From positions 1 to 33,462 of the forward strand of contig JAIPGP010000039.1 in assembly GCA_021735645.1 (NCBI GenBank): 33,462 nt of DNA. Direction: 5' to 3'. Below are positions 16,070-33,350 of this stretch, piece by piece. Numbering within the stretch: position 1 is the first letter of the stretch; every line of letters begins with the position of its first letter. Position numbers and translations under genes: made by a program. The notes beneath the pieces were generated by a model, which saw nothing but the letters and a program-made list of their open reading frames with translations, made no database searches and was not told the origin of the DNA. Source of the stretch: Candidatus Cloacimonadota bacterium (GTDB lineage: Bacteria > Cloacimonadota > Cloacimonadia > Cloacimonadales > TCS61).

Positions 16070-19000
16070 TTATTTTCTGGAATTAAGTTTTCTACCCTGT
16101 TCAATAGGGAACTGGTCGATGATACCCACAAAGTATTGCAGAATGAGTGAACCGTCATAGGCTTCCACAGTACCATTTCCATCCACATCTGAGCGGGTGA
16201 TACGCCATTCTTCCCAGGGCAGGGGAGCAACGGCTCCGGGATCGATGCCCACAAAATATTGCAGAGCAATGGAGGCATCAAAAGCTTCCACTATGCCATT
16301 TGCATCTACATCGCCATACATGATACCGCCAGAGGCAGGATTTACAGGAGTGAAGAGAATTGCTGTTTCGTCTGCCAGGGTGTGGGCAGTTTCCGGATAC
16401 ATATTGGCGAAAGTGATTTGCAGACCCTGAGTTCTATCGGGGCTTTCTAATCCTACAGTGGCATAGTTTTCTGCCTGGTCATAATTATTAACCTGCTGAT
16501 AGATAAATATAATTTCACCATCCCCGGTAGCAGTGGGATAGAATTCCGGGTCTCGCAGAACCACCTGGAAATATTGACGGTGGTTAGTGTTATATTCCAG
16601 TCTCATATTTTTCCATTCGAGCATGAATCTATGATTTTCTTCATCATACCAGAAATAGACATAGCCTTCGGAGAGGTCTTCCCAGAAGGGGCATACAAAG
16701 CCGCCAAAACCATAGCCGGAGGGAAGTGCTTTATTACGGAAGAACAGGGTATTTGTATTGCCGAAGGCGAAATATCCATTCTGGCAGACTGTGATACGGT
16801 CAAAGGTTTCACCATAATATTGAAAGTCAAAAGGCAGGTCAAGCTGGTCTAACCAGCCGTCATCAGTTTCGTGCATATGCGGTTGATTAAGGTAGCTTCC
16901 TTCTCCACCCGAATATGGTGAGATATCGAGCCATTCATATACCGGAACTTCAAAATCACCGTTGTCCTGGCTTTCTATTGCCATATAGCCATAGCTGTCA
17001 AAGGTGGGGCTGGCTTCACTGATCTCGCCAATGGGAATGGTGAGTGGAATAACCTGAACCAGTTCAGCACCTTCATAAAGAGAAAGCTGCAGGTTGGCAA
17101 CTTGTCCGGTGATCACATCTGCGGGTAAGAGTTCAAATAGAGATGAGTTTTCACTGGAGTTTCCCGGGGAAATGGAATAATAGGTGGATTCGCTGCTGGA
17201 GACTACTGCGTTGTTATCCAGGCTGAATAACACTGCATTGATAGCTCCTGTAGCAGTTGAACCGCTGTTATATAATTCAATATGTAGAGGACAGACAGTA
17301 CCCTGTAGCAGGAAACCGCTACTGTTTTCAATATCATAACCGGCGAAAGCAACTTCCTGAGATTGAGTTTCCAGCTCTATCAGACTGTTCGAATTGCCTA
17401 AGCTGGAGCTGATATTGCAGAATATTTGACCATAGCGTCCATCAATCCATTGATTATCGGTGTTGATAGTAAAAGTTAATGCAGTTTCATCATCACCAGC
17501 CAGTAAATCCAGATTAGCGGAGCTGACAGGTAGAAAGAAAACACCATCATAATTTAATAATTCAATTGTGATGCCATAAGCACTTGAGCCGGCATAATTA
17601 TGCAGCATCAGTTCCAGTTCAAAGCTGTTTCCGGCGGCAGGAGTGATATTTGTGGAATATTCTGTGATACCCAGCACATCAGCGGCTAATACTTCAATAT
17701 CTTCAGTGGCAGGAATATAGCCGTATCGGGAAGCAGTGACAGTGTATTCACCGAGTGGCATTTCCACGGGGATATAAGCATTGCCATTATTGTTAGTAAT
17801 GTCAGTAGCCAGCAAGCCATCATCAGATGTGACAGCAATGCGGAATCCTTCTACTTGATCATCATCGCTGCTGATAGTTATTTCCAGATAATTTTGTCCG
17901 ATCGGAATTTCTGTGTCTAATTCTAATTCGCAGTTTTTGGGAACATCCGTCCAGATTTCTACAGTGGGGTCGCCTAGAAGGTTATATACATAGAAATAGA
18001 ACTGGTCAGAATCAAGAGCATCGCCCCAGCTGTGACAGAAGGGGAAGTTATTATACATTTCCATTTTGCCGCGCAGCATCATGGCAGAAGTGCCAAATAT
18101 CCCTTCCTGAGTGATGCCCTGATATATACCTAAGTCATTACAGTTATTAAAAGGTGTTTTAGTATCATGCTCGCTGGGTCCGATGAAAGCGATAGCCCCG
18201 CGGGGATTACTGGCAGAGCCGGAGACCAGCCATGTTTCACCAAAGCAGGTGGAGTAGTTGTTATCAGCAAAATCACCACCTCCGCAGACGATACTGGTAA
18301 CCATTGGCAGCATCCAGCCATTGGAGAGGGCATTTATATCGCTGATCTCGAACATGTGTCCCCCAGAAGCACCATTCCAGTAATATGTACTGCCAAAGCC
18401 GCGATAATTAAGAAAAGTATAGCCGGTATTGATCAAGTTGCGCAATTGAGTGTGACTGCTCTGATAAGGAGCAATAAAAGTATCTATCTGGGTATAAGTG
18501 TAATCGAGCAGTTTTTCCCCTGCACAAATCACGGTTTCACGTCCGGAGAAATATTCTGAACCCCAGTTGTCTTCAATCACGCTCATCATCAAACCCTTTG
18601 TGTACCAGTTTGTATTGGTCATATAGGGATTACTTTCATAGTTGATTATCTTGGCGATAGCGGTGGCTAATTGAGTAGTGTTCTGGATTGATATTCTGCC
18701 TATCAGAACATCGGGGAAATAATCAGTTCCTTCCAGCAGAGCATAATTATGGTCTGTAACATCCCAGGGATACATATATCCTTCACAGTAGAAGGCGGGC
18801 AGACTGTAACTGCCACTCACATCACCCACCAGCAGAACATGGTCAGGCGGATACTCCCAGTTATCATAGGCATTCTGGATATAATTCTGGATACTGCTGC
18901 TGCTGCTGCCGGTTTCTGTGGTAGTGGCAATAATGGTGTGGAATCCCATTTTTTGTTTCCATTCTGCCAGTGTTTCCAGATATGAAACAACCGAAGAGCG

Positions 19001-19657
19001 GCTAATAATCAGCAGACTGCCTGCATAATCATTATCATTACGATAATTATCTGCTCCAAATATCCATGACTGTGCCAGTTTATCAAAGGCGGCAGAACCG
19101 GGCAGTTCCCTGCCTGTTTGAGGATTAGTATAATTTGAATAGTCCACGGCGAGTTGAAGATCAAGGTTTGTGATCAGACGAATCTTTTGCAGGGCTGGAT
19201 TATATTGCACTGCAGCTATACTCACCTGCGAAAAACGGTAGTTACGCATGATTGATGGCTCGCTGATAGAGACAATTTCGCTGGGAAACCACTGGTTAGC
19301 GCGGTTATCCTGCCATTGGGTAAGATCTTCCCAGCCACTGGGAATAATTGGGTTTTCGATGTCAATTTCCTTTACATCATAAGTAAATTTGCTGATTTCC
19401 CAGTTACCATTATCAGGCAGAGCGATAATTCTGGTATAATGTGGTAGATCAGGATCACCTATACTGGCTCCCTGCTGCAAACCTTCCACTTCCAAGGTAG
19501 TAAACCGTCCTAATTCCACTGATAGCGTGGATTTAGTGAGCTCCCCAGGCTCTCCGGTTATCTGCAGAACATCGCCAGCCAGATTAATTTCATAGCTGCT
19601 TAAGGCTAAGGTAAATAATAAAAATGTAAGCCCTAATATAAATTTCATTTTTGGCAT
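16070..19657 (-). CDS. Secreted peptidase C25 (gingipain-like) protein with dockerin-like C-terminus; catalytic His apparently replaced
   Basis: The 1195-residue product begins MPKMKFILGLTFLLFTLALS (signal peptide). The ATG at 19657 is preceded by AAAGGAGG; an upstream in-frame start at 19693 has no such site. Residues about 25-200 resemble the C25 propeptide region and about 215-570 the caspase-like C25 domain ('LLIISRSSVVSYLETLAEWK', 'HVLLVGDVSGSYSLP', 'ISIVG'-like strands, 'NLLGDPTVEIW'). The catalytic Cys is in 'SIVCGGGDF' (Cys458). The expected GHG His motif reads 'NYRGFGS', with Phe421 in the His position. Beta-sandwich domains follow. Residues about 1115-1180 form a dockerin-like pair of calcium loops ('GDVDANGIVEAFD', 'SDVDGNGTVEAYD'). 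No T9SS-type tail is present. It is either a protease variant or a non-catalytic relative. Confidence 0.82.
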   Translation of the reverse strand: MPKMKFILGLTFLLFTLALSSYEINLAGDVLQITGEPGELTKSTLSVELGRFTTLEVEGLQQGASIGDPDLPHYTRIIALPDNGNWEISKFTYDVKEIDIENPIIPSGWEDLTQWQDNRANQWFPSEIVSISEPSIMRNYRFSQVSIAAVQYNPALQKIRLITNLDLQLAVDYSNYTNPQTGRELPGSAAFDKLAQSWIFGADNYRNDNDYAGSLLIISRSSVVSYLETLAEWKQKMGFHTIIATTTETGSSSSSIQNYIQNAYDNWEYPPDHVLLVGDVSGSYSLPAFYCEGYMYPWDVTDHNYALLEGTDYFPDVLIGRISIQNTTQLATAIAKIINYESNPYMTNTNWYTKGLMMSVIEDNWGSEYFSGRETVICAGEKLLDYTYTQIDTFIAPYQSSHTQLRNLINTGYTFLNYRGFGSTYYWNGASGGHMFEISDINALSNGWMLPMVTSIVCGGGDFADNNYSTCFGETWLVSGSASNPRGAIAFIGPSEHDTKTPFNNCNDLGIYQGITQEGIFGTSAMMLRGKMEMYNNFPFCHSWGDALDSDQFYFYVYNLLGDPTVEIWTDVPKNCELELDTEIPIGQNYLEITISSDDDQVEGFRIAVTSDDGLLATDITNNNGNAYIPVEMPLGEYTVTASRYGYIPATEDIEVLAADVLGITEYSTNITPAAGNSFELELMLHNYAGSSAYGITIELLNYDGVFFLPVSSANLDLLAGDDETALTFTINTDNQWIDGRYGQIFCNISSSLGNSNSLIELETQSQEVAFAGYDIENSSGFLLQGTVCPLHIELYNSGSTATGAINAVLFSLDNNAVVSSSESTYYSISPGNSSENSSLFELLPADVITGQVANLQLSLYEGAELVQVIPLTIPIGEISEASPTFDSYGYMAIESQDNGDFEVPVYEWLDISPYSGGEGSYLNQPHMHETDDGWLDQLDLPFDFQYYGETFDRITVCQNGYFAFGNTNTLFFRNKALPSGYGFGGFVCPFWEDLSEGYVYFWYDEENHRFMLEWKNMRLEYNTNHRQYFQVVLRDPEFYPTATGDGEIIFIYQQVNNYDQAENYATVGLESPDRTQGLQITFANMYPETAHTLADETAILFTPVNPASGGIMYGDVDANGIVEAFDASIALQYFVGIDPGAVAPLPWEEWRITRSDVDGNGTVEAYDGSLILQYFVGIIDQFPIEQGRKLNSRK

Positions 19658-19804
19658 AAAACCTCCTTTCACATAAAAACAATATATAAGCAATTTTTAT
19701 TCCTTTTTTTGTCAAATAGAAATTAGACCTAGAGAAAATTATTGGATTGACATGTTTTCAGAATTTCTATGATTAGGGTAGCGAAGAAAAAATGGGGGTT
19801 TTTG
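19658..19804. promoter_or_regulatory. Divergent promoter region of the C25 and selenoprotein genes
   Basis: The 147-base gap serves two divergent genes. For the minus strand, TTGACA (19731-19726 read in reverse) precedes TTATAT at a long 20-base spacing, and AAAGGAGG (about 19668-19661) is the ribosome binding site. For the plus strand, TTGACA (19747-19752) and TATGAT (19768-19773) are 15 bases apart, and GGGGG (19795-19799) precedes the ATG at 19805. Shared control of the pair is plausible. Confidence 0.4.
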
Positions 19805-20992
19805 ATGAAGCGGATTTTGACTATTGGTGTATTACTGTTTATCAGTTTCCTGTCTGCATATAGTATTGGAGATACTGTGGGAGACCATTCCTGGACGGAT
19901 AATAATGGAGAATACCACAGTGTTCATGAGTTGGTGGATAGTGGCAGAGTAATTGTATTTTTCTGGGGCGAGAACTGGTGAGGGGGTTGCGTTGCGGCAG
20001 CGCCGCAGCTCAATAGCTGGTGGAATAATGTCAATCAGGATCAGGCTTATCTGTTATGTTCCTATAACTGGAACAGTTATTTTTATGATATGCCCTGGTC
20101 AGCGCAATTAGATAATTATTACAATAATTTTGGTAATGGCTATGTACCCTATTTTTCTGTAATTGGGGCAGATTATGAATATCTGAGTGGGGGTAACAAT
20201 GTTTCCACTGCCATAAGTGCTGCTAATAATGCCATGCTGGGCATGGTCAATATATCCGTTGTCAATCCTATTTCAAATGTGATATTAGAGGCAAATTCCT
20301 CTACTACAATAGACATCAGTGATACATTCATGCATTCCCAGGGTGTTGCCATGACCTATTCCATCACTGCAAATACTAATCCTGACTGCTGTTCGGCTTC
20401 CATCTCAGGCACTACGATATATCTGGATGCCCTGGTTGCAGGGGGATTCTCCAATATTACGGTAACAGCTTGTGCCGGAAATTTATCTGCTGACGATACT
20501 TTCCTGGTTACAGTTCTTGATATATACCCTGCTCCGTTAAATCCCGAAGGAATAGTTATCTATCCCGAAGTATCACTTTCCTGGGAAGAACCGCAAGCTC
20601 TGGCACTTATCACCGGCTGGAATATATACCGGAATAATGAACTGATTGCCTCTTTGTCTGATACACAGTTATCTTATAATGACCTGCCGGAAGATGGCAG
20701 CTATATTTATACAATCCGAACTCAATATCTGCTGGTGGAATCCAGTCCCAGTATCCCGATAGATATTGAAATCTGGAATACAATTGGAGACGTGGATGCC
20801 AGCCAGGAAATTGATAGTTATGATGCTTCGATGATTCTGCATTATGTGGCTGGTATAGAGCCTGGCGGTCTGCCTTTTCCCTGGGTGGAATGGCGCATTG
20901 AACGGGCAGATATAGATGGGAACGGTCTGATTGAAGCCTATGATTGTGCTCTGCTGCTTCAATACATAGTGGGTATTATTGACGAATTATAG
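19805..20992 (+). CDS. Secreted thioredoxin-fold selenoprotein candidate (UxxC) with Ig-like, FN3 and dockerin-like domains
   Basis: If the single in-frame TGA (19979-19981, codon 59) is read as selenocysteine, the product is 395 residues. Residues 1-19 are a signal peptide (MKRILTIGVLLFISFLSAY). Residues about 20-150 form a thioredoxin fold: 'VIVFFWGENW', TGA, 'GGCVAAAP'. The TGA takes the place of the first Cys of WCxxC, Cys62 is the resolving Cys, and Pro67 matches the conserved helix proline. 'GNGYVPYFSVIG' provides the cis-proline strand. Then come an Ig/cadherin-like domain (about 155-240), an FN3-like domain (about 243-320) and a dockerin-like pair of calcium loops (about 326-395, 'GDVDASQEIDSYD', 'ADIDGNGLIEAYD'). 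The whole downstream part keeps the same frame. ATG 19805 has GGGGG upstream; an earlier ATG at 19769 is poorly placed. The alternative is a recent nonsense mutation of a Cys codon, or a sequencing error. Confidence 0.8.
19982..20009 (+). promoter_or_regulatory. Candidate bacterial SECIS hairpin after the in-frame TGA
   Basis: GTTGCGGC (19991-19998) pairs with GCCGCAGC (20002-20009) as an 8-bp stem with one T-G wobble, closing a three-base AGC loop. The loop begins 18 bases after the TGA and has G as its second base. From memory, bacterial SECIS models require a loop about 16-37 bases downstream of the UGA with a G in its first two positions. The run of GC-rich codons here (GCG GCA GCG CCG) contrasts with the AT-rich rest of the gene, as expected if RNA structure is selected. 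Confidence 0.65.
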
Positions 20993-22290: not shown

Positions 22291-22303
22291 GCAAAGATCA
22301 TGT

Positions 22304-22456
22304 TGTGTGGTGCGAAAGTTAAAAGGGAATCACGTGTGAAACGTGAGCGGTCTCAGCCACTGTAAGCAGCGTAAAATAGATATTTGCGGGTCACTGCGAG
22401 AGCGGGAAGGCTTGGAAAGAAAGGGAGCTGCGAGCCAGGAAACCTGCCATACAGAC
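22304..22456 (+). promoter_or_regulatory. Cobalamin (B12) riboswitch aptamer
   Basis: Class hallmarks occur in order: GGTGCGAAAG, AAAAGGGAA (22321-22329), a CACGT-GTGAAA-CGTG helix, GCGGTCTCAGCCACTG (the GCCACTG core), and the B12 box GAGCCAGGAAACCTGCC (about 22432-22448). The aptamer binds adenosyl- or other cobalamins and usually turns expression off. It lies directly before the btuF-btuC operon, which fits B12 import. Protein reading frames running through this segment (from 22343) are not real. Confidence 0.93.
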
Positions 22457-22462
22457 AATGAA

Positions 22463-22527
22463 CATCTCCTGCTGAGAACTGGTGAGATGCTCAAAGCCTG
22501 TACTTTCTGCTGCATAACGGCAGGAGG
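22463..22527 (+). promoter_or_regulatory. Riboswitch expression platform with ribosome-binding-site sequestering helix
   Basis: CTCCTGCTG (22466-22474) can pair with CGGCAGGAG (22518-22526), burying the AGGAGG that serves the TTG start at 22532. A competing 6-bp hairpin, CATCTC (22463-22468) with GAGATG (22484-22489), uses part of the same strand and would free the site. This suggests control of translation initiation, not transcription termination, as no T-tract is present. Confidence 0.65.
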
Positions 22528-22531
22528 TATA

Positions 22532-23383
22532 TTGAACGGGAAATGCGGATATTTTTTCTGGCTGCTGCTGGCAGCACTATTGCTATCTAATTGCACAAAA
22601 CCACCTAAAGCTGACAGCTCTAACCTGAAACTAGTGATCACATCACCTGAAGTAGCGGAAATTGTTTATCAATTGCAGGGAGAAAAGAATATTGCCGGTG
22701 TGACAATGGAATGCAATTATCCGGTGGAACTTCAGAAGATATTTCGAGTAGGAACTTTTGGCGGGATTGATATGGAGAAAGTTGCCGGTTTACAGCCGGA
22801 TGTGATATTTGTATCCGGATTGGAGCAGAACTTTCTGGCAGCTGAGCTGCAAAAGCTTGCTTTCAGAGTGGAAAAGGTTTATCCTGCTTCACTGGCAGAA
22901 ATGCTGAGATCTATTGGAGAGATAGCAAAAGTTATCGGTGCAGAGCAGGTAGGAAAAGAACTGACCGACAGTTTGAGTGCCGTGATAGAGCATTTGCGAG
23001 AGACAATGCCTGAGCAGCGTCCATCCATCTATGTGGAAATATATGGAGATCCCATTATGAGTGTGGCAGATGACTCGTATGTGGGAGAACTGGTAGAATT
23101 AGCAGGATTTGATAATATCTTTGCCGGTCTGCCTCGAGATTACAGCCGGGTGTCACCGGAAGCTGTGCTGGCTGCTGATCCTGATTATATTTTGCTTTTA
23201 TATCCGGGCATGAATTCTGAGCAGGTGGAAAGTCGTAAAGGCTGGGGTCAGGTAAGTGCTGTGCTCCATCAACATATTTATAATTCAGAAGATATAGATC
23301 CAGACTTGTTGTTAAGGGCAACTCCGCGCTCACTTGAAGGTGTGAAACTGCTGCGAGAACTGATTGAGGAAAGAAATGAGTAA
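22532..23383 (+). CDS. btuF: Cobalamin ABC transporter substrate-binding lipoprotein (BtuF-like)
   Basis: The 283-residue protein starts at TTG 22532, five bases after AGGAGG. It gives MNGKCGYFFWLLLAALLLSN then Cys21, a lipoprotein signal with lipobox LLSNC. A longer frame upstream would be the riboswitch and is rejected. The body is a cluster A-II (BtuF/FhuD/HmuT) binding fold: 'KLVITSPEVAEIVYQL', 'RVGTFGGIDMEKVAGLQPDV', a long central helix (about 125-165), then 'YVEIYGDPIMSVADDSYVGE' and 'VSPEAVLAADPDYILLLYPG'. The cobalamin riboswitch points to a B12 or cobinamide substrate. It overlaps btuC by 8 bases (ATGAGTAA). Confidence 0.9.
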   Translation: MNGKCGYFFWLLLAALLLSNCTKPPKADSSNLKLVITSPEVAEIVYQLQGEKNIAGVTMECNYPVELQKIFRVGTFGGIDMEKVAGLQPDVIFVSGLEQNFLAAELQKLAFRVEKVYPASLAEMLRSIGEIAKVIGAEQVGKELTDSLSAVIEHLRETMPEQRPSIYVEIYGDPIMSVADDSYVGELVELAGFDNIFAGLPRDYSRVSPEAVLAADPDYILLLYPGMNSEQVESRKGWGQVSAVLHQHIYNSEDIDPDLLLRATPRSLEGVKLLRELIEERNE

Positions 23384-24296
23384 GCACTGGCGGGTCATTC
23401 TGCTTTTTGCACTGATGACAGCAGTGATTTATATATATATAGTATTTGGCGCGGCATCTGGCTATGTGATCCAGCATTTACGGCTGCCACGGCTGGTGCT
23501 TACCATGCTGGTGGGCATGACGCTGGGCAGCGTGGGATTTGCTTTTCAATTGTTATTAAATAATCCTCTGGCAGAGCCTTATATCTTAGGAGTCAGTTCC
23601 GGAGCTGCCCTGGCAAGTATCTTAGCTGGAGCTGCGGGTTTATTTCTACTGATGCCGCTATTTGGTTTTCTGGGAGCGCTGGCTGCCATGCTGGCAGTTT
23701 ACTGGCTGGCACAAAGAGACGGGATGTTCAATACAACGCGATTACTATTGGCAGGTATCATTGTGGGCATGTTCCTATCCTCCATAATATCATTGGTGAT
23801 GTATTTGAACCAGAATGATATTGGGAATATTATCAATATTTTAATGGGTAATCTAGGGCATATATTCAGTAATAGCGATTGGCAGATATTTATAGGGATT
23901 GCCATCATCTGTCTGGTTCTGCTGGGCTGGCTGGCTTTGCAGGGCAGACGGCTGCTGGTGCTTTCTACTGGAGATCTGTTAGCAGGGAGTCTGGGGCTGA
24001 ATGTGCGACGGCTGCGGGTGCAGATATTTATTGTGTGCTCTTTATTGACCGGGCTAACGGTAGCTTTTTCCGGGATAATCGGCTTTGTGGGATTGATAGT
24101 ACCGCATCTGGTGCGCCTAATCTGGAAAGGGAACAAGCCTGAAAGTATATTTTATGCCGGAGTATTTGGCTCTGTATTCTTATTGATCTGTGATTTTATT
24201 GCCATGCATCTGGCAGTGATCGAATTACCGGTAGGGATAGTGACCTCCTTTATCGGCTGTCCATTATTTATCTATCTGCTTTGGCGGAAGAAATAA
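23376..24296 (+). CDS. btuC: Cobalamin ABC transporter permease (BtuC/FecCD family)
   Basis: This is a 306-residue polytopic inner-membrane protein of the FecCD/BtuC family. Typical motifs are 'RLPRLVLTMLVGMTLGSVGF', 'NNPLAEPYILGVSSGAAL', 'GIIGFVGLIVPHLVRL' and the conserved 'GNLGHIF' region. About nine to ten membrane segments are visible. The ATG at 23376 overlaps the end of btuF and follows GAGGAAAG, so translation is probably coupled and under the same riboswitch. Its ATPase partner is not adjacent; the best candidate is the gene at 26712. Confidence 0.92.
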   Translation: MSKHWRVILLFALMTAVIYIYIVFGAASGYVIQHLRLPRLVLTMLVGMTLGSVGFAFQLLLNNPLAEPYILGVSSGAALASILAGAAGLFLLMPLFGFLGALAAMLAVYWLAQRDGMFNTTRLLLAGIIVGMFLSSIISLVMYLNQNDIGNIINILMGNLGHIFSNSDWQIFIGIAIICLVLLGWLALQGRRLLVLSTGDLLAGSLGLNVRRLRVQIFIVCSLLTGLTVAFSGIIGFVGLIVPHLVRLIWKGNKPESIFYAGVFGSVFLLICDFIAMHLAVIELPVGIVTSFIGCPLFIYLLWRKK

Positions 24297-24318
24297 AAAA
24301 AAGCCTCCCGCAGGAGGC
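24295..24318 (-). terminator. Terminator of the iscR-iscS-iscU operon, overlapping the btuC stop
   Basis: On the minus strand GCCTCC-TGCG-GGAGGC (24318-24303) is followed by eight T residues (24302-24295). It stops transcripts from iscU. The plus-strand T-run is poor, so its effect on btuC transcripts is uncertain. A second hairpin, GATCAG-CAATTTA-CTGATC (24352-24370), lies between it and the iscU stop. Confidence 0.85.
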
Positions 24319-24370
24319 ATAAGTTCTTTATAAATATATAACGTGCGACCGGATCAGCAATTTACTGATC

Positions 24371-25000
24371 TTAGAGATTAATCGTGACTTTTTTCACACC
24401 GGGCAGTTTTTCGATGTGTTCTCTGATCTCATCAGCTACATTTTCGCGGTACTGGTCAAATTTGGGGATTTCCACATCAATAGTCACTAATCCGTCTTCA
24501 TTCACACTGGCATATTTCACCATTTTAAGCGATATAAGGTCTTCTCCAACTTTGGGATAGAGAATTTTGGCGAGTTCAGCGAGTATCATTTCCTTGTTCA
24601 GCGAGCCTTTATCAGATTCAATGAGGTGATGAGCAATTTCATAATTTTTTATAGCCTTGCGTAGAGTGTCCACTGCCAGTACGGAGCAGTGCATTTTCAC
24701 AGGTGGCAAGCCATCCAGTTCTTCAGCGGCTTCTTTCCAGGAGATGGCTTTGGCTTCGGCAATGGTTTTGCCCTTTGCCATATCGGTAATGATGGAAGCA
24801 GTGGCGATATTGGAAGCGCAGCCATAGGAAAGAAAACCAATGTCTTCAATAACCTGGGTATCTTCATTGACATTTAGCCAGATAGACACCTGGTCACCAC
24901 AGGCGGGACTGCCTTCTGTTGCTTCTGCATTTGAGGTGTCAAGCTTGCCCAGATTGTGGGGTTTCATAAAGTGATCCAGAACTTTTTGTGAATACTGCAT
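24371..25000 (-). CDS. iscU: IscU-type Fe-S scaffold fused to a MIP18/DUF59 domain
   Basis: The 209-residue protein has two parts. Residues 1-125 are an IscU scaffold with ligands Cys34 and Asp36 in 'GSPACGDQ', Cys61 in 'SYGCASNIA' and His104-Cys105 in 'KMHCSVLA'. It also has the HscA-recognition motif LPPVK (99-103). Residues about 135-209 are a MIP18/DUF59 (SufT/PaaD-like) domain: 'ILAELAKILYPKVGEDLISL', 'LVTIDVEIP' and 'EHIEKLPGVKKVTINL'. The first part assembles clusters from desulfurase sulfur; MIP18 proteins help deliver them. The fusion therefore suggests assembly and hand-over in one chain (inference). The gene lies 13 bases after iscS. Confidence 0.9.
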   Translation of the reverse strand: MQYSQKVLDHFMKPHNLGKLDTSNAEATEGSPACGDQVSIWLNVNEDTQVIEDIGFLSYGCASNIATASIITDMAKGKTIAEAKAISWKEAAEELDGLPPVKMHCSVLAVDTLRKAIKNYEIAHHLIESDKGSLNKEMILAELAKILYPKVGEDLISLKMVKYASVNEDGLVTIDVEIPKFDQYRENVADEIREHIEKLPGVKKVTINL

Positions 25001-25013
25001 GATTACTCCTATA

Positions 25014-26198
25014 TTATTGTTTTGCTATAAAATCTGCATACAGAGGACTGCGGCGGCGTAATTCTTTTACCACTTCCTCCAGTTTATCAACTACATAATC
25101 AATTTCTTCTCTGGTATTATATCTGCTTAAAGTAAATTTCATAGAGCTGTGGCTTTGTTCGTGATTACGTCCCATAGCCATCATTACATAATTTGCCTGC
25201 AGTCCTTCGGAGAAGCAGGCACTGCCAGTAGCTACACTGATGCCGTATTGGTCAAGCATCATCATAATAGCTTCGCCTTCAATGAAATCAAAAGAGACAT
25301 TCAGGTTATGGGGTGCACGATAATCGCAGAAAGCGCCATTGAGCATAGTATAGGGAATTCTCTTTTCAATACTTTCAAATAGATAGCGTGTCAGGTTGCG
25401 GATATAATCCACGTTTTCCTGGAATTTATCAAAAGCCAGTTCCACTGCTTTAGCAAAACCGGCTATATTAGCAATTGAAATAGCACCTGTAGCCAGGGGG
25501 TCAATTCTATTGATACCGTGACGAGTGGGAGCAACTGATATGCCGGGTTTGATATAGAGTGCACCCACACCTTGAGGTCCATGGATTTTGTGAGCACTGA
25601 GAGTGAGCATATCCACATTCATCTGCTGCACATCGACCGGTACTCTGCCATATCCCTGGCAGGCATCTACAAACAGAGCTGCATTAGATATGGATTCATC
25701 AATGATCTTTTTAATTTCTGTGATATCCTGCAAAGTGCCAACTGTATGATTTGCCAAAGTGGTCATCACCAGGATAGTATCTTTCCGTAGCTCTTGTTTC
25801 AGTTCTTCCAGATCAATGAAACCATCAGCATCGCAGCTCAGATAACTCACTTCAAAACCGCTTTCTTCAAAATAGGCAGCATTCGTGAGGATATCAGGGT
25901 AATCCACAATTGAGCAGATAATATGGTTCCCTTTTGCTGCATTAGCAGAGATATAGCCCTTGATTGCCAGGTTATTAGCATCAGTACCGCTATTAGTGAA
26001 GTGCACAGCTTTCGGCTGGGCGTTGATAGAACCAGCCACTATAGCTTTGAATTCTTCCAGTTCCCGGCTGCGTTCCGTGCCGGGCTGAATAAAGTTTTCC
26101 GGAAAGTGAAACTTTTCTTTATAATAGGGCAGCATGGCATCAATCACTTCCGGGGCTGGTTGACTGGTGAGACAATTATTCAAATAAATTCGCTTCAT
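25014..26198 (-). CDS. iscS: Cysteine desulfurase (IscS/NifS-like, atypical)
   Basis: This 394-residue PLP enzyme takes sulfur from cysteine and passes it to IscU as persulfide. The PLP lysine is Lys204 in 'LSAHKIHGPQGVGALY' and the persulfide cysteine is Cys328 in 'ATGSACFSEG'. Asp178 lies in 'LFVDACQGYG'. Two features depart from typical IscS. The 'TEH' motif whose His stacks on PLP reads 'VDY' (Asp99-Tyr100). The usual 'GGGQE-G-RSGT' loop reads 'RHGINRIDPLATGAIS'. Genomic context (iscR before, iscU after) still supports the Fe-S role, although substrate preference could differ. The ATG at 26198 has AGGAGATC upstream and overlaps the end of iscR by 23 bases. Confidence 0.88.
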   Translation of the reverse strand: MKRIYLNNCLTSQPAPEVIDAMLPYYKEKFHFPENFIQPGTERSRELEEFKAIVAGSINAQPKAVHFTNSGTDANNLAIKGYISANAAKGNHIICSIVDYPDILTNAAYFEESGFEVSYLSCDADGFIDLEELKQELRKDTILVMTTLANHTVGTLQDITEIKKIIDESISNAALFVDACQGYGRVPVDVQQMNVDMLTLSAHKIHGPQGVGALYIKPGISVAPTRHGINRIDPLATGAISIANIAGFAKAVELAFDKFQENVDYIRNLTRYLFESIEKRIPYTMLNGAFCDYRAPHNLNVSFDFIEGEAIMMMLDQYGISVATGSACFSEGLQANYVMMAMGRNHEQSHSSMKFTLSRYNTREEIDYVVDKLEEVVKELRRRSPLYADFIAKQ

Positions 26199-26619
26199 GA
26201 TCTCCTCTTATATATTTATTTATTATACTTTGTAAATTGATATTGGAAAAGTATGATTCCAGATCAGTTCCGATCCGGTCCCAGAACCCGCGAAGATGGC
26301 AGCTTAGACCCTGACAGTAATCCGCATCAATTTTCTGATGCCGGCAATAAGTGTAGTAATGAGATTCTTCCACAGCGTGCATCACATCCTGCAGAGTTAT
26401 AGTTTCTGCCTCACGAGCCAGCAGGTAGCCGCCATTAGTGCCTTTTCTGCTTTTCACCAGCTCCGATTTCTTGAGCAGACTGAAAAGCCGTTCCAGGTAT
26501 TTGGAAGGCAATTGCTGTCTATTAGCCAGCTCCGCGATGGATAGAGGCTGTTTGTCTCCAGTGAGTGCCAGCTCAATCATTGCTCTGAGAGCATATCCCG
26601 TCTTCGTTGATATATACAT
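26176..26619 (-). CDS. iscR: Rrf2-family transcription regulator (IscR-like)
   Basis: The 147-residue protein has an Rrf2 winged helix-turn-helix at about 1-80 ('YISTKTGYALRAMIELAL', 'SIAELANRQQLPSKYLERLF', 'LVKSRKGTNGGYLLA'). Three cysteines follow at 92, 102 and 107 in 'YCRHQKIDADYCQGLSC', the place where IscR holds its [2Fe-2S] cluster. It is expected to sense Fe-S status and repress its own operon. The spacing of the first two cysteines (9 residues between them, against 5 in E. coli IscR) is larger than usual. AAGGAG precedes the ATG. Divergent from btuD. Confidence 0.9.
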   Translation of the reverse strand: MYISTKTGYALRAMIELALTGDKQPLSIAELANRQQLPSKYLERLFSLLKKSELVKSRKGTNGGYLLAREAETITLQDVMHAVEESHYYTYCRHQKIDADYCQGLSCHLRGFWDRIGTDLESYFSNINLQSIINKYIRGDHEANLFE

Positions 26620-26711
26620 CTTTTTTCTCCTTTTAATAACATACTGAATTAGTAGGAGTTCGCAACCTTTTTATTTTCAGTGATTCTGCCGTCAAGCAGA
26701 ATGAGGTAAAA
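26620..26711. promoter_or_regulatory. Divergent control region of iscR and btuD with inverted repeat
   Basis: This 92-base gap must hold both promoters. ATTCTGC-CGTCAA-GCAGAAT (26683-26702) is a perfect 7-bp inverted repeat directly in front of the btuD ribosome binding site (GAGGTAAAA). It could be an operator or an RNA hairpin controlling translation. No cobalamin riboswitch is present here. Confidence 0.45.
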
Positions 26712-27491
26712 ATGATAAATATTTATAATTTGAGTGCTGGTTACCATGACCGGCAGGTGTTGCATAACATCGATCTGCAGTTTAAGCCAGGCAGTTTCAC
26801 GGCATTATTAGGACCTAATGGTGCCGGTAAGACTACGTTGCTCAAATGCCTTAGTGGCTATTTGGCGGCATCTGCCGGCAGGATAGTGATCAATGGTAAA
26901 GAACTAAGAGAATACAGAAGCAGACAGCTTGCTCATCAAATAGCTCTGATCCCGCAGAATTTTCAGTTGCAGTTTGAGTATCAGGTGCGGGAACTGGTGT
27001 TGATGGGCAGATTTCCTTATCTGGGGTATCTGGGCAGTTACACAAAAGAAGACAAAGAAATAGTGAGAAGCACATTGCATGAGCTTGATCTGCTGGAGCT
27101 GGCGGATAAGAATTTCAGTGAGCTATCCGGTGGCGAACAGCAGCGGGTGGCTATTGCCCGGGCATTAGTGCAATGCACACCGATTCTGCTATTGGATGAG
27201 GCTTTTGCCAGTCTGGACGTTAATCATGCCATCAGCATAATGCAGCTATTATCTGAAATTCATTTCACGCAGGACAAGACCATTATCCTGGTCTCGCATA
27301 ATATCAATCTGGCAGTGGAATACTGCACGCAGGCGATATTAATGAAAGATGGACAGATAATCAGACAGGGGCAGCCCAAAGATGTGATCACAGAAGCTTC
27401 CCTGGTAGAGGTGTATGAACACAATATTCAGGTGATAACTAATCCGGTGAGTGGACAGCCCAATCTGGTATATTCGGGATATAAGAGATAA
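26712..27491 (+). CDS. btuD: ABC transporter ATPase for cobalamin (BtuD/FecE family)
   Basis: The 259-residue ATPase shows Walker A 'GPNGAGKTT' (34-42), Q-loop 'IALIPQNFQ', signature 'LSGGEQQRVAIARAL' (from about 138), Walker B 'ILLLDEAFASLD' and switch His in 'ILVSHN'. It belongs to the iron-siderophore/B12/heme importer ATPases. It is the natural partner of BtuF and BtuC, which lack an adjacent ATPase. Its stop codon overlaps the ATG of the TonB receptor gene (TAATG), tying the receptor to this importer. Cobalamin as substrate is inferred from the btuFC riboswitch 2.4 kb upstream; iron-chelate or heme uptake is the alternative. Confidence 0.85.
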   Translation: MINIYNLSAGYHDRQVLHNIDLQFKPGSFTALLGPNGAGKTTLLKCLSGYLAASAGRIVINGKELREYRSRQLAHQIALIPQNFQLQFEYQVRELVLMGRFPYLGYLGSYTKEDKEIVRSTLHELDLLELADKNFSELSGGEQQRVAIARALVQCTPILLLDEAFASLDVNHAISIMQLLSEIHFTQDKTIILVSHNINLAVEYCTQAILMKDGQIIRQGQPKDVITEASLVEVYEHNIQVITNPVSGQPNLVYSGYKR

Positions 27492-29653
27492 TGAACCTAA
27501 AAACGGAAATAGTTATTATGGCTTTATTATATTGCCTGACTTTATCGGCAGAGCGGGTATCCGGATACGTAACTGATGAGCAGGGTCAGCCTCTGGATCG
27601 GGTTTTAGTGAAAAGCTCAGATGATTTTGCCATAACCCGGGAAGATGGAATATATCATTTGAGTGTGACTGTGCCAGATACGGTGCTTTTCCATAAACTG
27701 GGATATGCCGAAATGCGTCTGGCAGCAGATTCAATACCCTTAAAACTGGTTCTGAATAGAACTGCTCTCAGTATTGCCGGCAGAGATGTGGCAGGCAGCC
27801 GTTATAATGACCAGCCGTTAGTTCGCAGACTGATCACAATATCAGATAATCAGGTAGAGAACGAATCACTGGCGGGTTTCATTGCAGCAGAAACGGGATT
27901 ACAGCTAAACGGCACACGCACAGCAGGGACGCAGCAGACCTTGAAAGTGCCGGGTTATGAAAGCAGGCATACGCTGGTGATGCTGGATGGGATTCCGCTG
28001 AACATTGCTGGTGAGGAATTTGACCTTTCGCGAGTACCGCTCAGTTTAATAGCCGAGATAGAGATAATATCTGCTGCAGGCACTGCCGGTTCAGGAGGGA
28101 TGGGTACTGTGATCAATCTGAAAACCGGACAGCCCAGGCAGCCGGTCGAACTGGAAACTGCAATTAGTTATGGCTCATTTGACTATTATACTGCTAATCT
28201 CAGATACAGCAGAATTTTTCAGCGTTTCACCTGGCAGACTAATATCAGTTATCAGCAGGCGGAAAACGATTTTACTTATCCGGCACCTGAAAACTGGAAT
28301 CTGGTAGAGGAAGAATTGACCAGGGAAAACAATTCTTTCCGGCAGGCAGATATTTCTGCCTTTTTCACTTATCGCACGCAGTGGGGTGACTGGGATATAA
28401 AAGCATATTACACAGACTTTATACGCATGCTGCCGGGTGCGATAAATAATCCGGAGCAATTTTACAAAGCTCAGATCTCGGGAGAGATTTTTAAAGGACA
28501 ATTTAGCTGGAATTATGACAGGCAGAAGCTGAACTATTCCTGGAAGAGCTGGTATAATCAGGAAAACACAGTATATGATAATACACGCCTTGATGAAGCA
28601 TATATCAATAACATATATTATTATATCTGCGGTAAGAATAATAAAAAGAGCAGCGGTATCAGACCGCAGATCAACTGGAAACCAGTCTCAAATATAAACC
28701 TGAAGCTGGGTGCTGAACAGCTTTATGAAAGTTATAAATATGAAGAAACAGTGCACCAGCTAAATTCTCAACCCGAAGTTAAAAGAACTTCCCAGGCAAT
28801 ATTTTCCGAACTGGCTCTGAATCTGGAAAAGGGCAGGTTTTCTCCGTGGCTGAAGCTGGACAGTCGGTATGATGTTACTGAGGATTTTTCACCAGAAACA
28901 AGCGGAGGTGCTTTTTGCGGGATAGCTTATGAATCACAGCTAAAACTCTCAGCCTCGTTTGGCAGACTCTGGAGCTATACCCTGCCCTCATTCTACAGCC
29001 TCTACTGGCAGGGCAATGCGGAAGCAATCGGAAATCCTGACCTGAAACCGGAAACCAGCAGCGGATATAAAACGGCTGCCAGTCTGCAGTATCTGGATAA
29101 CATGCTCAGTTTTTCCTGTAGAAAAGATGAATTGCAGGATATGATAATCTGGATTGAATCCGTCAACAAAGCCTGGAAACCTGTCAATATTGGTGAAGCT
29201 CAGGTTACTAATCTGGAATATATGGGAGAATTGACTCCAGCGAAAAATATTAATTTTAAGGGCTCATATACTCAGACAATTTCAGCAGATAAAACCAGGC
29301 TGGAAAATGGAGAAGCTTCGGCTTATTATAATAAAGAACTTATCTACACTCCTGATTATCAGGGCAATTTAGGTATAAACTGGTCCCCGGCACCTTGCAG
29401 TTTTAATATTAACATGCAGTTTACCGGCAGTCAATGGACTACTCGTGACCAATTGACCCAGCAGAAACTTTTGGCAGAATATCAGTTATACAACTGCTCT
29501 GCGGGTTGGAACATGAAATATCGAAACTGGCTGATCACCTGGCAGCTCCAGATCAATAATCTCTTGGATGAACACTATAATATCTATGAATATATGCCGC
29601 AGCCCGGCAGAAATTACAGTTTTACTATTAAATTAAAAAAGAGGATAAGATGA
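27491..29653 (+). CDS. TonB-dependent outer-membrane receptor (BtuB-like)
   Basis: The 720-residue protein starts with a short signal segment (about 1-18). A carboxypeptidase-regulatory-like beta domain follows at about 20-90 ('VSGYVTDEQGQPLDRVLVKS'), then a plug at about 105-215 ('FIAAETGLQLNGTRTAGTQQ', 'VMLDGIPLN', 'IAEIEIISAAGTAGSGGMGT'). The rest is a 22-strand-type barrel ending 'YSFTIKLKKRIR', with the usual 'LDEHYNIYEYMPQPGRNY' C-terminal signature. The N-terminal extra domain is common in Bacteroidota-type receptors. Coupling to btuD suggests uptake of cobalamin or cobinamide into the periplasm. The next gene starts 4 bases before this one stops. Confidence 0.88.
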   Translation: MNLKTEIVIMALLYCLTLSAERVSGYVTDEQGQPLDRVLVKSSDDFAITREDGIYHLSVTVPDTVLFHKLGYAEMRLAADSIPLKLVLNRTALSIAGRDVAGSRYNDQPLVRRLITISDNQVENESLAGFIAAETGLQLNGTRTAGTQQTLKVPGYESRHTLVMLDGIPLNIAGEEFDLSRVPLSLIAEIEIISAAGTAGSGGMGTVINLKTGQPRQPVELETAISYGSFDYYTANLRYSRIFQRFTWQTNISYQQAENDFTYPAPENWNLVEEELTRENNSFRQADISAFFTYRTQWGDWDIKAYYTDFIRMLPGAINNPEQFYKAQISGEIFKGQFSWNYDRQKLNYSWKSWYNQENTVYDNTRLDEAYINNIYYYICGKNNKKSSGIRPQINWKPVSNINLKLGAEQLYESYKYEETVHQLNSQPEVKRTSQAIFSELALNLEKGRFSPWLKLDSRYDVTEDFSPETSGGAFCGIAYESQLKLSASFGRLWSYTLPSFYSLYWQGNAEAIGNPDLKPETSSGYKTAASLQYLDNMLSFSCRKDELQDMIIWIESVNKAWKPVNIGEAQVTNLEYMGELTPAKNINFKGSYTQTISADKTRLENGEASAYYNKELIYTPDYQGNLGINWSPAPCSFNINMQFTGSQWTTRDQLTQQKLLAEYQLYNCSAGWNMKYRNWLITWQLQINNLLDEHYNIYEYMPQPGRNYSFTIKLKKRIR

Positions 29654-32447: not shown

Positions 32448-33350
32448 ATGGAAATACTGCAAAAAACTCGTAAACCCGTCAAGAAAAATCGTGTATTTAA
32501 TGGTTTAACCGTCACGAATCCTAATTCTGCTGGTGTAGACATTGGCTCTCGATATCACTGGGTAGCTGTTGCACCACACTTAATGCCTTATAATGTTCGA
32601 AAATTCTCAACCTTTACTGTTGATTTGCATGAAATCTGCAAATGGCTCAAAGAATGCAAAGTTGAATCTGTTTGTATGGAATCAACTGGTGTTTACTGGA
32701 TACCATTATATGACTTGCTTGAAGAATATGGCTTTGTAGTTTTTTTATGCAATGCAAATCAAGCAAAAAATCTTCCTGGACGTCAGAAAACAGATTATCT
32801 TGACTGTGTCTGGATGCAAAAATTACACTCTTATGGTTTACTGAATAATTCATTTATTCCTAAACTTGCTATTCGTGATTTCCGCAACTTGATGAGGTAT
32901 CGTGAAAAGCTTACGCAAGACAAATCTCGTTATGTGCTCAGGATGCAAAAATTACTAACTCAAATGAATGTCCTCTTGCACAAAGTATTATCAGACATTA
33001 CAGGTAAAACAGGAATGTCAATTATCAAGGCAATAATTGCAGGAAATACAGAACCTGAACAATTACTGAAATTGAAAGTTTATAAAATCAAAGCTTCTGA
33101 TGAAACATTCCTGAAAGCATTACAAGGCAATTATGATACTTCTTTAATCAAATTACTAAATTTTGAACTAAAACAATACGAGGCATCCGTTTCCTTAATC
33201 TCTGAGGTAGATAAGGAAATAAATTTCACCTTACGCAATATTCCTATCGCTGATTTAAATGACAATACAGAACTATCAAAATTATCAGAAAAAGATTTGC
33301 TTATTGCTTATACTGGCGTAGATTTAACTGCAGAACACCTGACCTCATAA
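32448..33350 (+). CDS. IS110-family transposase, truncated (N-terminal DEDD domain only)
   Basis: The 300-residue product carries the RuvC-like DEDD domain of IS110 recombinases: Asp31 in 'GVDIGSRYHWVAV', Glu78 in 'CMESTGVYW', and Asp116/Asp119 in 'GRQKTDYLDCVWM'. A coiled region ('LIKLLNFELKQYEASVSLIS') follows. Family members then continue from an 'YTGVDLTAIDGI'-like segment into the Transposase_20 domain with the catalytic serine and reach about 400 residues. Here the protein ends 'YTGVDLTAEHLTS', so that domain is missing and the recombinase should be inactive. Ribosome binding site AAAGGAG. Codon use is more A/T-rich than that of the neighbours, in line with acquisition by transfer. Confidence 0.85.
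   Translation: MEILQKTRKPVKKNRVFNGLTVTNPNSAGVDIGSRYHWVAVAPHLMPYNVRKFSTFTVDLHEICKWLKECKVESVCMESTGVYWIPLYDLLEEYGFVVFLCNANQAKNLPGRQKTDYLDCVWMQKLHSYGLLNNSFIPKLAIRDFRNLMRYREKLTQDKSRYVLRMQKLLTQMNVLLHKVLSDITGKTGMSIIKAIIAGNTEPEQLLKLKVYKIKASDETFLKALQGNYDTSLIKLLNFELKQYEASVSLISEVDKEINFTLRNIPIADLNDNTELSKLSEKDLLIAYTGVDLTAEHLTS

Follow-up and report, generated by a model that had tools for sequence, protein, structure and literature searches.

Results

We analysed a stretch of 33,462 nucleotides (hereafter the window), which comprises positions 1 to 33,462 of contig JAIPGP010000039.1 from a metagenome-assembled genome (MAG) of a Candidatus Cloacimonadota bacterium (GCA_021735645.1; 3.77 Mb, 95% complete). 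On the forward strand of the window, positions 19805–20992 hold a 395-codon frame that terminates with TAG and is open throughout except for a single TGA at 19979–19981 (codon 59). This TGA lies in the context WGENW-U-GGCVAAAP, at the position of the first Cys of a thioredoxin motif (WUGGC), and Cys62 (19988–19990), the resolving residue of the UxxC, occupies an invariant column in alignment A1. Also invariant in A1 is Pro115 (20147–20149), which is contained in the downstream segment GYVPYF and is a candidate for the cis-proline of the thioredoxin fold, as judged by conservation only and not by bond geometry. The original prediction of a lone TGA splitting a 395-codon frame at the first-Cys site of a thioredoxin was confirmed exactly, and its expectation that standard gene calling would lose the catalytic site was met as well, since the list of open reading frames (minimum 80 aa) gave only the 3′ piece, from 20090.

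The encoded protein carries a probable signal peptide without a lipobox Cys (residues 1–20; 19805–19864), recognised by eye from KR, a hydrophobic core and small residues. Together with the similar starts of other family members, this apparent signal peptide supports the earlier claim of secretion, and judging from sequence the protein is very probably exported. Residues ~21–147 (19865–20245) were modelled by AlphaFold as a thioredoxin-fold domain with a mean pLDDT of 94, in which the CxxC-type motif (UGGC) sits at a helix start, and the model matched a Bacillus thiol-disulfide oxidoreductase, ResA and Etrx2, with Bcp-type peroxiredoxins also among the PDB matches. No Pfam thioredoxin-type model reached its cut-off in the window protein, the best sub-threshold matches being AhpC-TSA and Redoxin; as modelled, the fold is ResA/TlpA/Etrx-like. 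The Ig-like, FN3 and dockerin-like domains proposed to follow it stood up unequally. The type I dockerin, with two Ca-binding-type repeats (residues 327–392; 20783–20980), exceeded the Pfam gathering cut-off (PF00404, 27.5 versus 22.9 bits) and matched PDB dockerins; the Ig-like beta-sandwich (residues ~150–241; 20252–20527) is supported by its presence in relatives and by beta strands modelled with moderate confidence; the FN3-like region (residues ~243–322; 20531–20770) rests only on a weak phmmer match to the FnIII of chitinase A1 (E 0.056). The full-length AlphaFold model was poor beyond residue 240, and therefore no FN3–dockerin arrangement is claimed from structure.

Immediately 3′ of the UxxC codons, a predicted SECIS upper hairpin (19992–20008, forward strand) starts about 10 nt after the TGA and comprises about 7–8 pairs closed by a 3-nt loop, AGC (19999–20001), 17 nt after the TGA. 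With an energy of −17.3 kcal/mol, it meets every constraint of the published bSECIS model, namely a loop of 3–9 nt, a stem of 4–16 bp, G in the first two loop positions, a spacing of 16–37 nt and an MFE of at most −7.5 (PMC13188914). The energy is only moderately below that of shuffles (z = −1.9). In the family alignment, covariation in the hairpin was greater than in any of 500 shuffles or in any slid version, which counts as support and not as a probability, because related sequences can exceed shuffles. Codon choice was as striking: after the UxxC and one further residue, family genes nearly always read GCG GCG GCG CCG, so that GCG is nearly fixed at the motif but accounts for only 5% of the Ala codons of window genes and for 6% in the remainder of the family genes. 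Synonymous recoding with window codon usage reduced the stem from a mean of 4.9 contiguous pairs to 0.16, and a Delongbacteria member that has HETAS in place of AAAP keeps the hairpin through other pairs (GAGAC-GGC-GTCTC). In the set used for recoding, one member (L020/L126) had no hairpin in this register and that of another (L017) was weak. The RNA element is under selection of its own. The SelD gene of the source genome carries a hairpin of 7 bp with a 3-nt GGG loop, also 17 nt after its TGA, in a gene for an unrelated protein. Neither the window nor the family loci gave a SECIS match in Rfam, and confident matches of a SECIS model built from the family were confined to two family genes in the source genome; because the SelD hairpin was not found, this model is specific to the family.

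Among 59 relatives, the closest one outside the source genome is 66% identical over all 395 residues and contains one TGA, the same as in the window gene. Exactly one TGA was present in 37 of 39 homologues from 125 genomes of the phylum; the two exceptions are a weak 40-bit match and a paralogue with SPSS in place of UxxC, in which both redox residues have thus been lost together. In every TGA-bearing member inspected, across two phyla, the TGA falls in the same column, which accordingly holds TGA and not Cys, and the random stops elsewhere in homologues that would have refuted the original prediction are absent, with almost no further TGA in the frames. Codons on both sides of the TGA are under purifying selection, with a dN/dS of 0.15 downstream. 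The shared column, the near absence of other TGA codons and the selection on the flanks together place this TGA far beyond chance. A scan of genome contigs that included a Cys pattern at the site found no Cys version of the family, and outside the family only remote CxxC TlpA-like proteins were seen. The family is apparently selenium-only, with the reservation that the scan is blind to distant Cys homologues, which could have escaped it. Two observations concern the distribution of the gene. In Delongbacteria (L099 and L100; G125:C74; G126:C355, C334), thioredoxin genes containing a TGA occur in clusters, with four to five such genes in each genome and several arranged in tandem. JABMPU010000168.1 (L081), titled Armatimonadetes bacterium, contains the same gene as G010:C154 of the window's own Cloacimonadota family and is probably mislabelled.

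Of the selenocysteine (Sec) machinery that the original prediction required in the source genome, all four components were found: tRNA-Sec with a UCA anticodon (selC), SelA, SelB and SelD, the last being a selenoprotein itself with TGA at its Sec site. Across the phylum genomes, tRNA-Sec was detected in 29 of the 32 having the Sec-form gene and in 32 of the 93 without it (Fisher p 2e-8, a value that overstates independence because the genomes are related). One genome with the gene (G011, 92% complete) yielded neither SelB nor tRNA-Sec, and another (G125) gave no SelB match above cut-off. In a sister family (f13), the genes are ordered selenoprotein, selC, selA, selB on one strand at three loci (L136, L138, L139) and also at L084, while at L137 the contig end cuts the cluster after selA. 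The sel cluster of this family carries its own client gene, and this linkage is the strongest contextual evidence for Sec. Cloacimonetes tRNA-Sec has been described in the literature as having an unusual shape. As a separate observation, a molybdenum/tungsten riboswitch (57.7 bits; L010 2867–2986) lies just upstream of the copy in genome G015, on the opposite strand.

The C-terminal tails of the family are of two main kinds. Under a motif rule, 28 of 42 non-redundant members had tails of the type IX secretion system (T9SS) type, two had dockerins, three were cut by contig ends and nine were classed as other, several of which resemble T9SS tails; one of these nine (L138) passes the Pfam and NCBIfam sorting-tail cut-offs. 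Profiles confirmed T9SS tails in both selenoproteins of locus L043, and a paralogue in the source genome (contig C31) is T9SS-tailed by NCBIfam TIGR04183; across the relatives compared with sorting-domain profiles, matches either passed the cut-off or came close to it. The window protein itself had no match to a T9SS C-terminal sorting domain (TIGR04183/PF18962). Dockerin tails were confined to the window protein and its 66% identical relative, and the two fall inside a clade with full support, whose other members are T9SS-tailed or cut by contig ends; a tail swap is thus the simplest reading, with the caveat that the branch is long (1.03).

In the source genome, 18 matches to cohesins exceeded the cut-off, cohesins being present on contigs C43, C69, C98 and C110, and the dockerin matches listed numbered more than 20 besides that of the selenoprotein. 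The divergent neighbour of the selenoprotein gene (16070–19693, reverse strand) encodes a gingipain-like C25 peptidase (PF01364, 199 bits; PF08126) with a C-terminal dockerin (PF00404, 23.7 bits) that is 59% identical to that of the selenoprotein, and it is a possible client. The source genome shares its genus with G002, a genome that contains the Ca. Stygibacter frigidus contig JAVCCT010000147.1. A cellulosome-like complex consisting of dockerin-tailed C25, S8, GH18 and GH57 enzymes and a cohesin scaffoldin has been described in Ca. Stygibacter by Williams et al. (PMC8542988), in whose article the dockerin enzymes named are all hydrolytic and the string "seleno" does not occur. We consider it probable, without binding data, that the dockerin docks the selenoprotein onto such a surface complex, in which case a redox protein would be an addition to the hydrolytic set known from the same genus. 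A C25 gene immediately adjoins the selenoprotein gene at three loci in three orientations (L075 5133–10387, L073 6215–10411 and the window), with a T9SS tail in L073 and a dockerin in the window. Outside the window, a rebuilt profile found C25 genes beside L073 and L075 only, a one-sequence search having missed the L073 peptidase that Pfam detects. As only three of about 40 loci show it, the C25 partnership is no more than suggestive. Farther along the window, a cobalamin riboswitch (22292–22465, Rfam) is followed, within 22292–29653, by genes for a substrate-binding protein, a permease, an ATPase and a TonB-type receptor; IscS/IscU/Rrf2-like genes lie between them, and by eye the set appears to be ordinary cobalamin uptake and Fe-S genes. 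An IS110-type transposase-like frame, also recognised by eye, lies near the right end (32448–33350).

The window selenoprotein gene stands alone beside the C25 peptidase, away from the genes of the proposed envelope relay. Several relatives, however, are found beside genes for DsbD, a CxxC lipoprotein, a TlpA-like thioredoxin, a putative outer-membrane barrel of the DUF6029 type and a small T9SS-tailed protein, and in locus L043 all genes of these types are on one strand, flanked by two selenoprotein genes. In the source genome, relatives of these proteins surround selC: a lipoprotein (28% identity, E 8e-28), a TlpA::DUF6029 fusion (45% and 36%) and a DsbD N-domain-like protein (40%). The series on contig C89 of that genome (L135 2705–5715; L066 2460–4658) consists of the lipoprotein, the TlpA::DUF6029 fusion, an opposite-strand 23S-intervening-like frame, selC, the DsbD N-domain-like gene, whose start lies only a few bases beyond selC, and then a Fer4_5 polyferredoxin and a further TlpA. 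The selenoprotein, the machinery for Sec and a thiol relay of the envelope are thus connected through three separate arrangements. The DUF6029 barrel-like proteins (L043 8098–9585), and the fusion in the source genome too, end with a Cys pair, CRNGVC, near the C terminus, and the barrel may possibly be redox-active.

Discussion

That the TGA at 19979–19981 encodes Sec we regard as practically certain. The original prediction of an exported, dockerin-tailed selenoprotein is supported, its suggested action on disulfides of the secreted proteins encoded nearby being an inference. Outside its reach lay the rarity of dockerin tails in a mostly T9SS-tailed family, the covarying SECIS, the place of the gene in the sel cluster of a sister family and the linked envelope redox genes. 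To explain the TGA as an error of sequencing, as the stop of a pseudogene or as a codon reassigned to Trp or Gly is scarcely credible: the window coming from a MAG leaves it only as a general possibility, and dozens of independent assemblies carry the same TGA, selection acts on either side of it, the Sec machinery of the source genome is complete, and TGA terminates three of the 20 window genes and occurs inside none of the long window frames. Conservation, the SECIS, flanking selection and codon use in the window contradict these explanations. We put the probability that the gene encodes a genuine exported Sec thiol-disulfide oxidoreductase at roughly 0.88, the activity being inferred; all of the evidence is computational, the genomes are almost all MAGs, and there is no protein evidence.

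The direction of the reaction is far less settled. DsbD and TlpA proteins supply reductant, and the lower redox potential that Sec confers favours reduction. Because genes for both proteins are linked to relatives of the window gene, we infer a surface reductase fed by the relay, a reading to which we give even odds, its reductive direction, electron path and substrate all being inferred. Thioredoxin folds work in both directions, and the enzyme could instead be an oxidase, an isomerase or a quality-control enzyme for secreted disulfide proteins, in the manner of DsbA, DsbC or PDI. Many surface proteins here are secreted, and the T9SS-exported HBP35 both complemented an E. coli dsbA mutant and reduced insulin (PMC2907840). 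Such a role is nevertheless unlikely in our view, because the fold matches ResA/TlpA/Etrx-like proteins, which are mostly reductive enzymes, and because the linked genes and the chemistry of Sec point towards reduction.

Two further functions were weighed against the surface reductase. The sub-threshold AhpC-TSA and Redoxin matches and the Bcp-type peroxiredoxins among the structural matches would suit a surface Sec peroxidase, or an antioxidant linked to methionine sulfoxide or peroxide (peroxiredoxin-type or Etrx-MsrAB2-like), yet a UxxC motif, with its resolving Cys adjacent, is one of disulfide exchange, the motif given for Sec peroxiredoxins is TxxU (PMC13188914), and no MsrA/B was noticed beside the gene, in the absence of a dedicated search; this function seems improbable. 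More improbable still is a role outside redox chemistry, in which a diverged surface protein would serve structure or ligand binding and merely retain the Sec codon. The long branch of the dockerin pair, the SPSS paralogue and the hemin binding of HBP35 (PMC2907840) could be cited in its favour, but the UGA, the SECIS and Cys62 would be costly to keep without redox use, and all three are kept in both dockerin copies; codons downstream of the TGA, moreover, are under purifying selection.

The chemistry proposed has known precedents, and the unusual features are the surface architecture and an apparent absence of Cys forms. Known UxxC selenoproteins of the thioredoxin fold include Trx, a Prx-like thiol:disulfide oxidoreductase, a thiol-disulfide isomerase-like protein (cd02966) and redoxin (PF08534) (PMC13188914). 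They share the Sec-first UxxC, the fold and a bacterial SECIS with the present family, whose members, in contrast, are secreted, large and modular and carry T9SS or dockerin tails. No Cys form of the family was found, although Cys homologues exist for nearly all selenoproteins (PMC13188914). A 2026 inventory of 119 families and subfamilies does not name the family, which could be absorbed by its broad entries such as "thiol-disulfide isomerase-like" (PMC13188914), and NCBIfam selenoprotein models did not match the three members tested. In the searchable literature we found no other bacterial selenoprotein reported to carry a T9SS sorting tail or a dockerin, and literature on selenoproteins with Cloacimonadota, dockerins or type IX secretion held nothing relevant except the tRNA-Sec shape mentioned above.

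To our knowledge, the nearest functional analogue is HBP35 of Porphyromonas gingivalis. It is an exported thioredoxin of demonstrated activity, with a T9SS C-terminal sorting domain like that of most relatives of the window protein, but it has not been reported as a selenoprotein and lacks a dockerin; the likeness is functional, homology to the family being untested (PMC2907840, PMC3120885). The pneumococcal Etrx1/Etrx2 system with CcdA and MsrAB2 offers an extracytoplasmic thioredoxin fed by a membrane protein of the CcdA/DsbD family, and Etrx2 is among the best fold matches, but these are Gram-positive Cys lipoproteins with no Sec, no dockerin and no outer membrane to cross (PMC3914529). ResA and TlpA share the fold (TM-score ~0.7), and genes for TlpA and DsbD are linked to relatives, yet identity is only 12–15%, and the present protein has Sec for Cys and is secreted and multidomain instead of membrane-anchored.

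We read the UGA as decoded by SelB and tRNA-Sec at the downstream SECIS hairpin, and after export the dockerin probably holds the enzyme on a surface cohesin scaffoldin, near dockerin-tailed peptidases and glycosidases, its relatives being held at the surface by T9SS tails instead. For the dockerin form, which lacks a T9SS tail, the route out of a diderm cell is unexplained, and co-secretion with a scaffoldin bearing a C-terminal sorting domain would be one possibility. On the reading as a surface reductase, Sec59 would attack extracellular disulfides, or other oxidised sulfur, and Cys62 would resolve the intermediate; protein substrates under digestion and the C25 enzymes, which are Cys proteases, are possible beneficiaries. 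The oxidised enzyme might then be re-reduced through DsbD in the inner membrane, the TlpA-like thioredoxin, the CxxC lipoprotein and the DUF6029 barrel in the outer membrane. The full scheme, an obligate-Sec extracellular electron relay running from the cytoplasm through these four proteins, with CRNGVC as the Cys pair of the barrel, to surface selenoproteins on T9SS anchors or cohesin–dockerin contacts, is offered tentatively, as a hypothesis that we consider somewhat doubtful.

The family would add one to the more than 110 selenoprotein families known. As it apparently lacks a Cys form, it would tend to escape searches for Cys/Sec pairs, and its genes are cut at the catalytic codon by gene callers. 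It raises the questions of why an extracellular enzyme should be given selenium and by what route electrons get past the outer membrane to recharge it. If the proposed scheme is true, Sec would serve a thiol relay that spans a Gram-negative outer membrane and whose genes, in some lineages, cluster with those of the Sec machinery. One enzyme module here carries two different surface-sorting tails, and in its dockerin form it would bring a redox function to the cellulosome-like complex known from Ca. Stygibacter.
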